Assembly (NCBI GenBank): GCA_030618495.1 | Contig: JAUXDE010000078.1 | Location: forward strand, 1 to 8,441 | DNA length: 8,441 nt | Source of the DNA: Clostridia bacterium | GTDB lineage: Bacteria; UBA6262; WVXT01; JAUXBS01 | Direction: 5' to 3' | In this document: positions 2,707 through 8,441 of the stretch, piece after piece | Layout of the letters: each line of letters starts with the position of its first letter | How positions within the stretch are numbered: the stretch's first letter is position 1 | Position numbers and translations under genes: made by a program | The notes under the pieces: model-generated | Databases searched by the model: none | What the model saw: only the letters and a program-made list of their open reading frames with translations | Told to the model about the DNA's origin: nothing

Positions 2707-2932
2707 GTGCTCCGCAACATAAATTACAGCCATTTTTGAGGCTATAGTTCGAGGCAAATTCAAGGCGTGAAGAGCGAGCAATGCTCTGCCATTGTGATCG
2801 ATGAAACAACGAAGAAGTCGCCCGGAATTTAGCCTCCCGAAGGGCTTCTGGCTTTTGGTCTTCGCTTTTACAGCGTTCAGCTCGGCTCAAAATCCTCCAG
2901 CAAAAATAGCGGGAATTTATGTTACGGAGCAC
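2707..2932. mobile_element. 226-bp MITE-like element with terminal inverted repeats
   Basis: The left end GTGCTCCGCAACATAAATT (2707-2725) is repeated in inverse orientation at 2914-2932 with one mismatch. With about five further mismatches the inverted repeat extends to 32 bp per end (2707-2738 and 2901-2932, both reaching a shared ATTTTTG). There is no transposase and no clear target-site duplication. The right end overlaps the last 11 bp of the kinase gene and supplies its TAA stop codon. The left end touches the next gene's ribosome binding site. On the minus strand one 81-codon frame (GTG start at 2930-2932) stays open across the whole element. It has no ribosome binding site and overlaps both neighbours, so I do not call it a gene. 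The element is probably a non-autonomous mobile or dispersed repeat. Confidence 0.7.
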
Positions 2933-3836
2933 TAGTAAACTCCGTTAGTTTCTTTAATTCAAGAAACCTCTTCCTGATTTCTTTCCTTTTCAGGTTCTTC
3001 ATCCCGTTCAGGCTGAACCCCCCAACGGCAAAGGAAGCCATGACCGTACCGTAAATAATCGCCCTGCGTATATTTGCCTCGCTTGTATCATCCGTTTTTG
3101 CAAGGTACCCCATCATGCCTCCCGCAAAGGTATCCCCCGCCCCGGTAGGGTCAACAACCGACTCAAGCGGATATGACGGCGCGGAGAAAACCGACCCGGC
3201 AGTGAACAACATTGAACCATATTCACCCCTTTTGACGACCAGCGTCCGGGGCCCCAGCTTCAATAACTTACGCGCAGCCTTTAGGAGATTGGATTCCCCG
3301 CTAAGCTGTTTTGTCTCCGCATCGTTAATTACAAGCATATCAACGTGTTTAAGCGTCTTCTTCAATGCCTGTGGTTTTGAACTTATCCAGAGGTTCATGG
3401 TGTCGCAGGCGACAAGATAGGGTTTTTTTACCTGTTTCAAAACTTCCAGTTGAAGCGGAGGATCAATGTTACCGAGAAAAACGTACCTTGTCTTCCTGTA
3501 GTAATCAGGAATCTTCGGGTGAAAGTTCTCAAAAACATTAAGACAGACTTTCAGTGTCTCAGCGGTATTCATGTCTCCCTCGTAACTCCCCTTCCACCTG
3601 AAAGTCTTTCCTTCGGCCCTTTCAAGCCCTCTTAAATCAATTTTTCTTTTCTTGAGAAAATCCACATGCCGCCGCGGAAAATCATTGCCCACCACGGCAA
3701 CCAGCCTTACCTTTGTAAAAAAGCTCGCCGACACCGAGAAATAGGTCGCAGAACCTCCCAGCGCCTCATTGACCTTCCCGTGAGGTGTCTTGACGGAATC
3801 AAGCGCCGCAGAACCAACAACAAGAATCTCTTTCAT
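2922..3836 (-). CDS. PfkB-family carbohydrate/nucleoside kinase
   Basis: This 304-aa ribokinase-fold enzyme transfers the ATP gamma-phosphate to a sugar or nucleoside hydroxyl. It shows the family start ILVVGSAALD (4-13), the substrate-side GGSATYFS (27-34), NDAE (171-174, the Mg/phosphate NxxE motif) and the signature DPTGAGDTFAGG (229-240). Asp235 is the catalytic base and the GAG forms the anion hole. The substrate is not readable from sequence. The gene follows mtnP by 16 nt, which suggests purine or methylthioribose/ribose salvage, but that is inference. A weak AAAGGAAA precedes the ATG at 3834-3836. The last residues (about SAP) and the TAA come from the adjoining inverted-repeat element, so the native C-terminus may have been altered. 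Confidence 0.9.
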   Translation of the reverse strand: MKEILVVGSAALDSVKTPHGKVNEALGGSATYFSVSASFFTKVRLVAVVGNDFPRRHVDFLKKRKIDLRGLERAEGKTFRWKGSYEGDMNTAETLKVCLNVFENFHPKIPDYYRKTRYVFLGNIDPPLQLEVLKQVKKPYLVACDTMNLWISSKPQALKKTLKHVDMLVINDAETKQLSGESNLLKAARKLLKLGPRTLVVKRGEYGSMLFTAGSVFSAPSYPLESVVDPTGAGDTFAGGMMGYLAKTDDTSEANIRRAIIYGTVMASFAVGGFSLNGMKNLKRKEIRKRFLELKKLTEFTSAP

Positions 3837-3852
3837 AAGCGTGTTATTTCCT

Positions 3853-4710
3853 TTACAGGTATTTTCCGATAATCAGGTCAAGGTCTTTCTTTCTTTTTGC
3901 GGGAATCTTATCCGCTGACGTGATGATGGTGTTTTTCAGGGCGGTTGAGCAACCACACGTCCGCTTCACAGGCATATTCTTAACCGCGCCCCTTATCACT
4001 GCTTTAACGGAATCTGACATTGAGTTAATCCGCCTGACAACCATCTCCACGGTAACCGCCTCGTCGGTTTCATGCCAGCAGTCATAATCCGTTATCATGG
4101 CAACGGTGGCATAACATATTTCCGCTTCCCTCGCAAGTTTCGCCTCGGGCATATTGGTCATTCCTATCATGTCAACATCCCATTTTCTGTGAATTGCAGA
4201 CTCGCCACCGGTAGAAAATTGCGGGCCTTCCATACACAGGTACGTTCCGGCCTTTCTTATATCAACGCCGGAGCTCCTGCCTGACGCCATTATAGTATCG
4301 CCAAGAACACCGCACACGGGTTCAGCCATCCCCACGTGAACCACCAGTCCGTCGCCAAAGAAAGAACTTATCCTTTTTCTAGTATTATCATAAAACTGAC
4401 TGGCCAGTACTATCTCTCCCGGCTTGATGTCTTCTTTCATGCTGCCAACGGCGCTTACCGATATGATTCTTTCAACCCCGAGTTTTTTAAACCCGTATAT
4501 GTTTGCCCGATAATTTATTTCCGAAGGCATCAATACATGCCCCCGCCCGTGACGGGGAAGAAAAGCAACCCTCTTCCCTTCCAGCATGCCCGTAAGATAT
4601 TCATCCGAAGGGTTTCCGAAAGGAGTATTTACCCTCACTTTTTTAATATCCTTAAACCCATCCATTTCCTGCAGCCCGCTGCCCCCCATGATACCGATTT
4701 TAATATCCAT
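3853..4710 (-). CDS. mtnP: 5'-Methylthioadenosine phosphorylase
   Basis: This enzyme cleaves 5'-methylthioadenosine with phosphate to adenine and 5-methylthioribose 1-phosphate, recycling the by-product of polyamine and other SAM-dependent synthesis. The 285-aa product has the nucleoside phosphorylase-2 landmarks: GGSG (9-12) and PRHGRGH (52-58) for phosphate, NYRANI (66-71), MEGPQFST (160-167), GMTNMPEAKLAREAE (183-197) and TDYDCWHE (207-214). The last favours methylthioadenosine over a plain purine nucleoside phosphorylase. FSTGGES (165-171) differs from the more usual FST-[RK]-AES. An AAGGAAGGG ribosome binding site precedes the ATG. The gene lies 16 nt from recJ and 16 nt from the kinase. 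Specificity for other nucleosides (inosine, adenosine) cannot be excluded. Confidence 0.95.
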   Translation of the reverse strand: MDIKIGIMGGSGLQEMDGFKDIKKVRVNTPFGNPSDEYLTGMLEGKRVAFLPRHGRGHVLMPSEINYRANIYGFKKLGVERIISVSAVGSMKEDIKPGEIVLASQFYDNTRKRISSFFGDGLVVHVGMAEPVCGVLGDTIMASGRSSGVDIRKAGTYLCMEGPQFSTGGESAIHRKWDVDMIGMTNMPEAKLAREAEICYATVAMITDYDCWHETDEAVTVEMVVRRINSMSDSVKAVIRGAVKNMPVKRTCGCSTALKNTIITSADKIPAKRKKDLDLIIGKYL

Positions 4711-4726
4711 TTATACCCTTCCTTTA

Positions 4727-6448
4727 TTACGCGCAGGGACGTATGTCTTTTAACAGAAGCCGTAGATACTTTCTGCCATCCCAGAAATTTACCTCTAGGT
4801 TGAAGGTAAGGTCAACGCTGCTGACCTTATTTAACTCCTTATTCAGAATCCCAAGGCCCCATCCAAAACCTTCTAAATTATTATCCTTGAGTTTTATCCT
4901 CAGATGGCTGTGGTTTCCCCCGATAGCCGTGTTCCTTTCAAGTTTTGCCCCATATAAGGCAAAAACCGGCGAAGAATTCCGGTAACCGAAAGGTTCCATG
5001 TTACGGATTTCATCCATCAGCGGAGCCGAAACCTGATCCGCTTTCACCACGTGATCAATCACAATCCTTGGCGTCAGGTCTTCCTCGGTAAGCTTGCCGT
5101 CAGCGTATTTGTTTATCCTCTTTCTGAACTCCGCTATATTGTCCCTGGTCATGGATAATCCTGCCGCGAATTTATGACCGCCGTACCTGGTTAATAAATC
5201 ATCACATGACCGTATAGCCTCTCCGATATCAAAGGACTCAATACTCCTTGCCGAACCTACGACCTCGTCACCCTCGATTCGAAGCACAATTACAGGTTTA
5301 TAGTGCTCCTGCATCACATGGCTGGCGATGACCCCCGCTATCCTTTTATCAATTTCATTGGAAGCTATAACCAGCACCTTATCTTCTATTACATTGCACT
5401 GTCCGTGTATAACCGAATTAATAACTTTTAAGCTCTTGTCCTGGCTTGATTTGCGCTTGTTATTAAGCGTCACTATATCTTCAAGCAATTCTTCCGCTTC
5501 CACCCTGTTATCGGTAAGTACTAATTCACACGACAGCGCGGCATTACCCATCCTGCCGCTGGCATTCAAAGGCGGAACCATTTTCCATGAAACATCCTTT
5601 GCCGTTAATTCCGTTAAATCCGGCTGTCTCATGCAGTGTTCAAGCAAAAGGCGCAGGCCGATTCTTTTTGTATTCATCAAGGGCTCAAGTCCGTGTTTTA
5701 CAATAATCCTGTTCTCGTCAATCAGCGGGACGATGTCCGCAATAGACCCCAGCGCCATTAAATCCAGGTACCGGTAAACAAACTCTTTTTTCTTCTCCCC
5801 TGCCCCGTCAGGCAAGAAACTCTCGTAAAGAGCCTGGCAGGTTTTAAAAGCCACTGTACAACCGGCGATTTCACGAAAAGGATATTCTGACGATTTGGAC
5901 TTGGGATTAATAACCGCAATTGCATCAGGAAGCTCTTCCATAACTTCATGATGGTCGGTAATTATTACGTCTATACCCAGTTTGCCGGCGTACGTTACTT
6001 CTTCCACATTCTTTATACCGCAATCAACCGTTATAATAAGGGAAACTCCTTTTCCCTTATACCTGTCTATAATATCTTTCTGTACACCGTATGCCTCTTC
6101 CATGGGAACAAAGTACTCGCAGTCAGCTCCCAGCCCTTTCAGTGTCTTCACCATTATCACGACAGCGGAAATCCCATCCACATCGCGATCCCCGTAAATA
6201 AGTATTTTTTCTTTTCTTTCTATTGCCCTTCTTATTCTTTCAATCCCCTTTTGCATATCAGGCAGAAGGCAAGGGTCGTAAAGTAAGCTAATATCCGGAT
6301 TAAGGAAAGATACCGCTTTTTCAACATCGGAAATCCCTTTGCTAACAAGAATATCCGCCGTAATTTCCAATATATTCAACTCGCTGGAAATCTTTTCCAC
6401 AAGAGACTTATCATTTTCCTTGATGTTCCATTTTTTCGGGAGATACAA
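4727..6448 (-). CDS. recJ: Single-stranded-DNA exonuclease RecJ
   Basis: RecJ is a 5'-to-3' single-strand exonuclease used in recombinational repair, mismatch repair and processing of stalled forks. The 573 aa match the family length. The DHH core shows GDRDVDG (86-92), DCG (142-144), DHH (165-167) and LGSIADIVPL (233-242). NASGRMG (295-301), SARS (399-402) and the DHHA1 motif GGHKFAAG (423-430) follow, and the rest is an OB-type domain. Motif I has Arg88 where most RecJ proteins have Tyr; the metal-binding Asp residues are intact. The start is TTG at 6446-6448, directly after the response-regulator stop codon. An in-frame TAA immediately upstream excludes an earlier start, and no ATG follows until residue 65, so translational coupling is likely. 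Confidence 0.96.
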   Translation of the reverse strand: MYLPKKWNIKENDKSLVEKISSELNILEITADILVSKGISDVEKAVSFLNPDISLLYDPCLLPDMQKGIERIRRAIERKEKILIYGDRDVDGISAVVIMVKTLKGLGADCEYFVPMEEAYGVQKDIIDRYKGKGVSLIITVDCGIKNVEEVTYAGKLGIDVIITDHHEVMEELPDAIAVINPKSKSSEYPFREIAGCTVAFKTCQALYESFLPDGAGEKKKEFVYRYLDLMALGSIADIVPLIDENRIIVKHGLEPLMNTKRIGLRLLLEHCMRQPDLTELTAKDVSWKMVPPLNASGRMGNAALSCELVLTDNRVEAEELLEDIVTLNNKRKSSQDKSLKVINSVIHGQCNVIEDKVLVIASNEIDKRIAGVIASHVMQEHYKPVIVLRIEGDEVVGSARSIESFDIGEAIRSCDDLLTRYGGHKFAAGLSMTRDNIAEFRKRINKYADGKLTEEDLTPRIVIDHVVKADQVSAPLMDEIRNMEPFGYRNSSPVFALYGAKLERNTAIGGNHSHLRIKLKDNNLEGFGWGLGILNKELNKVSSVDLTFNLEVNFWDGRKYLRLLLKDIRPCA

Positions 6449-6838
6449 TTATAGACTCTCTTTCTTTTTCAATTCCAGCAAATACTTAATGCGTTTTATC
6501 AGATGCTGTGATTCAAACGGCTTGGTTATATACCAGCTGGCGCCGCTCACCAGCCCTTTTTCGAAATCCTTGCCCATCCCAAGCGCAGTAAGCATTAAAA
6601 CCGGCACGTCCTTATTTTTCTCGTCGGTCCTTAAAGTTTTACACACCTGGTATCCATCCATCCCCGGCATCATCAAATCCAGAATTACCAAATCAGGGAA
6701 TTCCTCCCGCGCAGTGTTAATCCCATCTTCACCACTGTGAGCAACAACCGTTGAATACCCTTCTTTCTTCAGTATAAATTCAATCAACGTTGTAATTTGA
6801 TTATCATCATCCACGATAAGAATTTTTTCGCCAGGCAT
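6449..6838 (-). CDS. Single-domain response regulator (CheY-like receiver)
   Basis: This 129-aa phospho-receiver has no output domain. It shows the acidic pocket Asp10-Asp11 in ILIVDDD, the phospho-acceptor Asp54 in ILDLMMPGMDG, Thr84 in LMLTAL and Lys106 in ITKPF. The residues before ITKPF are GASWY instead of the common GADDY. It probably passes a signal by protein contact, as CheY- and Spo0F-type proteins do. The upstream frame (MQSKGDI) would overlap the preceding gene; the AGGAGA ribosome binding site supports the ATG at 6836-6838. It starts 10 nt after the DnaA-type gene and abuts recJ. No histidine kinase is in the window, so its signal is unknown. Partnership with the DnaA-type ATPase is inferred from adjacency only. 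Confidence 0.95.
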   Translation of the reverse strand: MPGEKILIVDDDNQITTLIEFILKKEGYSTVVAHSGEDGINTAREEFPDLVILDLMMPGMDGYQVCKTLRTDEKNKDVPVLMLTALGMGKDFEKGLVSGASWYITKPFESQHLIKRIKYLLELKKKESL

Positions 6839-6848: not shown

Positions 6849-8441
6849 TTACTTTGCAAATATATTCTTATGCCCTATCAGCACCATATCAAGAAGCAGA
6901 TTTAAATACTTGTATTCCTTACGTAAATCATTAAATGGGATAATCTGCACTGCAATGAATTTGCCTTCTAATGCTTTTGTAATCTCTTCTGAAAAAACAT
7001 CATGGGATAGGGCTCCATCCTGGGGAGGGCCCAGTATCATGGCGCTTTGCACGTTATTGGTCCTGCAAAGCTCAGCGAACATTGCATAGTTTATTTTTTC
7101 TTCAACTTCATATTCCCTGTCGAAAACTCCAACCAGATTAAATTTCAGTTTATGCTTATCTGAAGTTGTATCAAAATACTCCTTCATCACCCGGCACTCC
7201 TCATCGTGACCTTTTGGATAAAAACAGGCAACCTCCACAGACCTTACTGACTCGTCTTCTGCTTTATCCTTTTCCTCTTTAGAAACTCCGGGTTTTGCCG
7301 CCGGGGCAGGTTTTGGTTCCTCTTTCTTTTCCGGACGGGCTGCGGATTTTGACAATTCTTTAAGTTTTGCGATTGCTGTAGCCTTATCAATTTTTTTCTC
7401 TGGTTTCCCGGCTTTCTCTCCTGCCGTCTCGGCTGCCACGGTTCTTTCCTTTACTTCTTCCTGCTCCTCTTCAGGCAACAAATCATTCATTAACTCCTTA
7501 ACAAGTCCCATGTTGACCGCCTGCTTGGTCATCTGGGCATAAGCATATACCCTCTTCATGAATCCTTCCAGTTCCCTTATGTTGGACTTCAATCTCCCCG
7601 CGATGTATAATAAAACGTTATCATCCATCTTTAGTTTTTTGTACTCATCTTTGTTTTTAAGAATAGCGGTGCGTGTTTCCAAGTCAGGGGATTTAATATC
7701 GGCGATCAGGCCCCATTCAAACCTTGATTTTAACCTGTCCTCCAGTGTGGTTAACTGTTTTGGCGGCTTGTCGCATGTAATTACTATTTGCTTATGATTG
7801 TTATGCAAGACATTGAAGGTATGAAAAAAATCCTCCTGTGTCGATTCCGCCTCTACAAGAAACTGGATATCATCTATCATCAACAGGTCAAGCTCCCTGA
7901 ATCTGTCCCTGAGTTCCTGTATAGTCCCGTTGCTAATAGCTTCAATAACCTCACTTATGAATTCTTCAGTGGTGATGTAAGACATTTTTTTCTCAGGATT
8001 GTTTTCCTTTATATAATGACCTATAGCATGCATCAGATGCGTTTTCCCCAATCCCACGCCGCCATAGAGAAACAACGGATTATAGATTTGACCGGGATTT
8101 TTTGCCACCGCCTGCGCTGCTGCGTATGCAAACCTGTTGCTTGCGCCCACAACAAAGTTCTTAAAAACATACGATGAAATTAGACCTGTTTCTTTTTCTT
8201 CTCCTGCCGGAACAGGTACTCCCTCTTTTTTTCCTTCGGCAGGCTCAGTGCCCGCTGATGCTGCGCCGAACGAGCCTTCTTCCTTTTTCTCCTCGGCAGG
8301 TTTAGGGCCCGCTGATGCTGCGCCGAACGAGCCTTCTTCCTTTTTCTCCTCGGCAGGCTCAGGGCCCGCTGATGCTGCGCCGAACGAGCCTTCTTCCTTT
8401 TTCTCCTCGGCAGGTTTAGGGCCCGCTGATGCTGCGCCGAA
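6849..8441 (-). CDS. DnaA-type AAA+ ATPase with domain IV replaced by an unknown C-terminal domain; 5' end missing
   Basis: The frame is open to the window edge and gives 530 residues (numbered from base 8441). Residues 1-76 are repetitive, then ISSYVFKNFVVGASNRFAYA starts a full DnaA domain III. It contains Walker A GGVGLGKTH (127-135), a DnaA initiator-specific region (156-185), Walker B LLMIDDIQ (186-193), sensor 1 ITCD (221-224), box VII with Arg240 in SRFEWG, and sensor 2 Arg289 in NIRELEG. ATP binding and filament formation therefore look intact. The helix-turn-helix domain IV that reads DnaA boxes is absent. Instead there is a Lys/Glu/Ala/Pro linker (about 323-399) and an alpha/beta domain (about 400-530, coding 6852-7244) that I do not recognise. 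Hda also lacks domain IV but has no such extension. It heads the cluster with a response regulator and recJ. It could be a DnaA paralogue or a divergent main initiator. Confidence 0.9.
   Translation of the reverse strand, partial: FGAASAGPKPAEEKKEEGSFGAASAGPEPAEEKKEEGSFGAASAGPKPAEEKKEEGSFGAASAGTEPAEGKKEGVPVPAGEEKETGLISSYVFKNFVVGASNRFAYAAAQAVAKNPGQIYNPLFLYGGVGLGKTHLMHAIGHYIKENNPEKKMSYITTEEFISEVIEAISNGTIQELRDRFRELDLLMIDDIQFLVEAESTQEDFFHTFNVLHNNHKQIVITCDKPPKQLTTLEDRLKSRFEWGLIADIKSPDLETRTAILKNKDEYKKLKMDDNVLLYIAGRLKSNIRELEGFMKRVYAYAQMTKQAVNMGLVKELMNDLLPEEEQEEVKERTVAAETAGEKAGKPEKKIDKATAIAKLKELSKSAARPEKKEEPKPAPAAKPGVSKEEKDKAEDESVRSVEVACFYPKGHDEECRVMKEYFDTTSDKHKLKFNLVGVFDREYEVEEKINYAMFAELCRTNNVQSAMILGPPQDGALSHDVFSEEITKALEGKFIAVQIIPFNDLRKEYKYLNLLLDMVLIGHKNIFAK
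8214..8441 (-). repeat. 57-bp coding tandem repeat (19-residue units), at least four copies
   Basis: Four units of 57 bp occur at 8385-8441, 8328-8384, 8271-8327 and 8214-8270, and the array continues past the window edge. The unit encodes FGAASAGPKPAEEKKEEGS. Copies 1 and 3 are identical in all 57 bases. Copy 2 differs at two bases, which change the Lys after GP to Glu. Copy 4 is degenerate and also has Glu there. The result is an alternating K/E pattern with a 114-bp higher-order period. The encoded segment is a disordered-looking, charged linker before the ATPase domain of the DnaA-type protein. Confidence 0.95.

Follow-up and report, generated by a model that had tools for sequence, protein, structure and literature searches.

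The window, an 8441-bp stretch of DNA that is the whole of contig C172 in a 1.69-Mb, 98% complete genome of 179 contigs, ends in a gene for a DnaA paralogue that retains a full DnaA-type ATPase domain III and carries, in the position of the DNA-binding domain IV, a different domain that we identify from structure models as an Argonaute-MID-like fold. We are highly confident of the identity and architecture of this paralogue, and we favour, tentatively and short of even confidence, the reading that it is an ancient, vertically inherited DnaA copy that left replication initiation and would act as an ATP-switched oligomer using its MID-like domain. The relevant features of the window are as follows:

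8225..8441, minus strand: 57-bp in-frame tandem repeat in the linker between the N-terminal domain and the AAA+ domain, at which the contig breaks
6849..8441, minus strand: 3′ part of the DnaA-paralogue gene, 530 codons plus stop, with the 5′ end off the contig
7701..8177, minus strand: DnaA domain III AAA+ core (Pfam Bac_DnaA)
7437..7700, minus strand: AAA+ lid (domain IIIb), including the sensor II segment SNIRELEG at 7563-7586
7251..7436, minus strand: charged Pro/Ala/Lys/Glu linker
6852..7250, minus strand: C-terminal domain of 133 aa, predicted Argonaute-MID-like alpha/beta fold
6449..6838, minus strand: receiver-only response regulator of 129 aa that begins 10 bp past the DnaA-like gene's stop codon, which its ribosome-binding site (AAAGGAGAT) overlaps
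4727..6448, minus strand: recJ (5′-3′ ssDNA exonuclease), downstream of the response regulator
3853..4710, minus strand: nucleoside phosphorylase (PNP/MTAP family)
2922..3836, minus strand: PfkB-family (ribokinase-like) sugar kinase

The window spans the whole contig, so the reading frame at 6849-8441 runs off it at the 5′ end; the N-terminal half of the protein is absent because the contig ends in the tandem repeat, each unit of which encodes 19 residues rich in Ala, Gly, Pro and Glu (FGAASAGP.PAEEKKEEGS). An identical 57-bp repeat ends another contig of the same genome, C78, where a matching N-terminal domain at 3841-4320 runs in frame off the contig within the repeat, and a diverged version is found in locus L003; we infer that the ends of C172 and C78 belong to one gene. 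Contig C78 also bears tpiA and rpiB. Within the encoded protein, Pfam Bac_DnaA matched residues 89-247 (E 3e-70), and the last 208 residues (6852-7475) matched no recognised Pfam family. The initial annotation had placed a separate C-terminal domain distinct from domain IV at 6852-7244; the domain itself stands and does end in LIGHKNIFAK as described there, while its border shifts to 7250.

That a complete ATPase domain III is followed here by something other than domain IV, as the initial annotation had proposed, is borne out at the level of both protein and genome. The domain IV helix-turn-helix (PF08299) found no match in the DnaA-like protein, and the genome as a whole contains two DnaA ATPases and a single domain IV, which lies on the second, canonical DnaA that had been suggested as a check. 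This canonical DnaA (459 aa, contig C95) neighbours dnaN, recF, gyrB, gyrA and rnpA, named from their sequences, and the paralogue gene lies near neither dnaA nor dnaN. A domain IV hidden in the C-terminal domain, which had been named as a possible refutation, was ruled out by profile comparison (hhalign probability 0.2%). The paralogue nevertheless scored 365 bits against the NCBIfam DnaA equivalog model TIGR00362, above its cut-off of 344 and from domain III alone, so that automated pipelines would name it DnaA and it may be widely mislabelled.

In the ATPase domain, Walker A (8037-8063), Walker B (7860-7886), the box VII arginine finger (7710-7745) and sensor II (7563-7586) were all located, and 27/27 relatives retain the GKT of Walker A, the DD of Walker B, the R-x3-R of box VII and the arginine of sensor II. 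No subunit-interface residue among those checked has been lost in the paralogues, the box VII arginine and sensor II being identical to those of the canonical DnaAs of the same genomes, the hydrophobic positions of the ISM helices are largely kept, and the best solved-structure match was DnaA (8btg, E 4e-86). The groups differ at two places: the sensor-I segment reads SD-R-PP in canonical DnaAs (R in 28/44) and D-K-PP in paralogues (K in 21/27), and ELEG is followed mostly by A in the former and by F, I or V in the latter. From the kept motifs, the protein would be expected to bind and hydrolyse ATP and to assemble head to tail, and ATP-dependent oligomerisation is plausible because all checked interface residues are kept.

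The initial annotation had considered the C-terminal alpha/beta domain unrecognised, a view that gives way to an Argonaute/PIWI MID fold by AlphaFold2, VIA and hhalign. An AlphaFold2 model built from 43 sequences (pLDDT 87.7, pTM 0.83) showed a beta-alpha unit repeated four times; an earlier model from 5 sequences had been too weak (pLDDT 60). VIA-align superposed the domain on the 127-residue MID domain of MIWI over 120 residues (Z 13.4, r.m.s.d. 2.2 Å), and among the 50 matches listed all were Argonaute/PIWI proteins, with prokaryotic Argonautes at Z about 12. Foldseek ranked the MID domain of human AGO2 (E 2e-5) level with lumazine synthase, which is not among the 50 VIA matches listed. In profile comparisons, hhalign matched the domain to 12 prokaryotic Argonaute MID sequences at 90.6% (E 1.3e-6) and, against full-length prokaryotic Argonautes, aligned it to the MID region. 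A second alignment of the same 12 MIDs gave a score of 30.3 (57.6%), where eleven neighbour families, the N-terminal domain and the AAA+ domain all scored no higher than 18.4, unrelated profiles stayed at or below 1.4%, and 200 column shuffles never exceeded 15.3. The C-terminal domain had no credible Pfam match, the N- and C-terminal domains drawing only weak and inconsistent few-member hits to NNH6, Tap-RNA_bind and Tricorn_C1; a HMMER search of PDB sequences with both domain profiles returned nothing credible, and in a viral structure library nothing matched the C-terminal domain at an E-value up to 0.001. The MID match could reflect no more than a deep Rossmann-like kinship.

In Argonautes, the guide 5′-phosphate is bound by a Y/R, K, Q, K motif (PMC6299218). 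At the corresponding positions, mapped by sequence alignment, the paralogues have F (26/28), L/I/F (28/28), E/Q/H/A and Asp (43/43), so that the pocket lysines are missing, one being replaced by the invariant Asp, and the last is not basic. With this motif lost, the domain is MID-like rather than a functional Argonaute guide pocket. PIWI (PF02171) had no match anywhere in the window's genome.

The survey of lineages that the initial annotation had recommended found the architecture in four related uncultured bacterial phyla. Full-length relatives measure 610-795 aa and comprise an N-terminal domain of ~85 aa, a linker, the DnaA AAA+ domain, a second linker and the C-terminal domain of ~130 aa; the second linker often contains a C-x2-C...C-x2-C zinc ribbon (family f2, the phylum of genome G076), which is absent in the window gene. 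In its own phylum, canonical DnaA and the paralogue occur together in each of 6 genomes, and the paralogue is present in 3/3, 5/5 and 16/16 genomes of the other three phyla. Overall, the C-terminal domain was found in 29/30 genomes over the four phyla, the single exception being truncated by a contig end. When its profile was run on 386 sampled genomes, it met only three other families beyond its own phylum, mostly long DnaA AAA+ proteins, and no further phylum. Because the paralogue stands beside a normal DnaA in nearly all genomes, its role probably differs from replication initiation, and the combination of a canonical DnaA elsewhere with a different C-terminal domain makes a non-initiator role likely.

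An AAA+ tree of 71 sequences, with bootstraps that were incompletely converged and a midpoint root only, placed the 27 paralogues in one clade and the 44 canonical DnaAs in another (100/98). The canonical DnaAs of the four phyla cluster together (83/84) with a branching congruent with that of the paralogues, and both subtrees place the window's phylum with f117. The simplest reading of these sequences is one duplication before the four phyla split, probably followed by vertical descent. Two f117 genomes (G384 and G120, loci L104 and L105) also encode, as their third DnaA-type ATPase, a protein of 499 aa, which forms a long branch on the canonical side. Separately, a DnaA AAA+ match within a 2145-codon open frame of an unrelated genome (G017:C1:2399972-2400673) is possibly another unusual DnaA fusion.

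The conserved N-terminal domain showed no detected sequence kinship to canonical domains I-II (hhalign 0.9%) and no hhalign profile similarity to the C-terminal domain or to Argonaute. In f73 and f262, the gene immediately upstream of the DnaA-like gene encodes a shorter protein that joins this domain to the MID-like domain and lacks the ATPase; in f198 such a protein is encoded upstream of gcvT. Six of these proteins were seen (L072:169-1116, L073:2822-3955, L075:4382-5656, L148:6137-7192, L154:2881-3990 and L156:7202-7978); usually adjoining the DnaA-like gene, they are apparently dedicated adaptors. Two further MID-like proteins of 244 and 288 aa, in which the N-terminal domain was not detected (L076:6261-6995 and L142:5615-6481), lie outside the main cluster, among exopolysaccharide or cell-surface genes of G242 and G387.

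The common theme of the gene neighbourhoods is pentose/nucleoside catabolism together with two-component signalling. In the window, the receiver-only regulator is likely a co-translated partner of the DnaA-like gene. Of 30 related loci or gene pieces, 25 have a receiver gene, 22 the transketolase N part (tktN), 14 a histidine kinase and 12 rpiB within eight genes; these counts are lower bounds because many contigs end nearby. Other neighbours include tpiA, DeoC, deoB, deoA, PNP, adenine deaminase, glycine cleavage genes and a PilT-type ATPase; recJ recurs near the DnaA-like gene in L069, and the PilT-type ATPase and DeoC occur in the f198 clusters. The shared neighbourhood may reflect inherited gene order rather than function, since the canonical DnaA tree suggests that the four phyla are related. 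In the phylum of G076, the gene is clustered with BMC shell genes, RpiB and DeoC, a combination that marks SPU microcompartments, which are proposed to metabolise DNA-degradation products (PMC8217296). The shell family PF00936 had no match in the window's genome or in the other 5 genomes of its phylum and is absent from two other phyla, so that a microcompartment function was rejected as the common theme.

Elsewhere in the window, a CIRCE-like operator (TTAGCACTC-N8-GAGTGCTAA, 883-908) with a spacer of 8 rather than the usual 9 lies upstream of groES/groEL. A 199-aa predicted membrane or exported protein with no Pfam match is encoded at 2121-2720, and between it and pfkB, 19-bp inverted repeats (18/19) at 2707-2932 bound about 226 bp, possibly a small mobile element.

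Taking these observations together, we propose that ATP binding would drive the paralogue into head-to-tail oligomers of the DnaA type, and that the MID-like domains displayed on such an oligomer would bind a ligand or partner rather than a 5′-phosphorylated guide in the Argonaute manner. The co-encoded receiver protein would switch the assembly, and its output may control or spatially organise the uptake and breakdown of pentose derived from nucleic acids. Oligomerisation, the response-regulator link and the metabolic output are suggested by sequence and gene context, and we hold this mechanism at best as tentatively as the overall reading to which it belongs.

The suggestion in the initial annotation that the protein may regulate replication finds no support in gene context, where response regulators and pentose/nucleoside catabolism prevail. 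In an Hda-type regulator, the AAA+ domain would meet canonical DnaA at the shared arginine-finger interface and set its ATP state, and sensing would fall to the MID-like and N-terminal domains. Each genome checked keeps a canonical DnaA in addition to the paralogue, and the interface residues of the two are the same, making mixed oligomers chemically possible; however, the paralogue reached only 110 bits against the Hda model TIGR03420 (cut-off 194.8), and its gene is surrounded by catabolic and two-component genes away from dnaA and dnaN, so that we regard such a regulator as unlikely. That the break at the contig end or an assembly error has turned an ordinary DnaA into an apparent paralogue, a suspicion that the NCBIfam DnaA call might also encourage, deserves next to no credence and is already refuted: four relatives of 617-620 aa, with C-terminal domains 47-48% identical, have an unbroken identical architecture, which recurs in many genomes of four phyla, and genomes of the window's phylum have one domain IV each, on the other DnaA. 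The same intact relatives and the single domain IV elsewhere rule out the frameshift near the end of domain III that the initial annotation had raised against itself.

The gene neighbours also fit an ATPase that handles nucleic acid for DNA or RNA scavenging, with filaments holding ssDNA through the ISM helices and MID-like domains engaging strand ends to feed RecJ and nucleoside phosphorylases. DnaA filaments bind ssDNA via domain III (PMC5295021), and this, together with the kept ISM positions, makes nucleic-acid handling possible; recJ and the PNP/MTAP gene downstream in the window, recJ in L069, the PilT-type ATPase and DeoC of f198, and the SPU loci, which share DeoC and RpiB and are read as degrading DNA-breakdown products (PMC8217296), point the same way. 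The protein itself, however, contains no nuclease, its link to the pathway is by neighbourhood, and the MID 5′-end pocket residues (motif in PMC6299218) are lost, leaving this reading quite improbable. A bolder version, a new kind of nucleic-acid machine in which filaments display MID-like domains that recognise nucleic-acid ends or nucleotides by an altered chemistry built on the invariant Asp and, with adaptors and the response regulator, feed DNA or RNA into pentose catabolism, is more doubtful still.

Four phyla have thus preserved an early duplicate of DnaA whose ATPase is intact and whose DNA-binding domain has given way to a MID-like one. This duplicate shows that the ATPase module of DnaA is open to redeployment and that a MID-like domain can occur outside Argonautes, and its parts (ATPase, MID-like adaptors, response regulator and catabolic operon) are compact and testable. 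No earlier description of a DnaA-AAA+/MID-like architecture was found in the literature searched, and the term dnaA is absent from the SPU papers found. The cluster in the phylum of G076 shares the BMC shell, RpiB and DeoC with SPU loci, whereas no shell protein accompanies the gene in the window's genome or in two other phyla.

DnaA is seen as serving one purpose, the initiation of bacterial replication, and Hda, of about 230-250 aa and with no extra domains, is its known relative without domain IV. The paralogue shares with Hda/HdaA a DnaA-type ATPase without domain IV but differs in its length of 610-795 aa, its extra domains, its clade separate from canonical DnaA and its scores below the Hda model cut-offs. 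With the DnaA initiator it shares the AAA+ core of domain III with all catalytic and interface motifs, but it lacks domain IV and a recognisable domain I, has a new domain at its N terminus and a MID-like one at its C terminus, and is encoded away from dnaN in addition to canonical DnaA. Its C-terminal domain resembles the MID domains of Argonaute/PIWI proteins in predicted fold (Z 12-14 over 116-131 residues) and in sequence profile, but the protein has neither PIWI nor PAZ, its pocket reads F, L/I/F, E/Q/H/A and an invariant Asp where Argonautes have Y/K/Q/K, and the MID-like domain is fused to an AAA+ ATPase.
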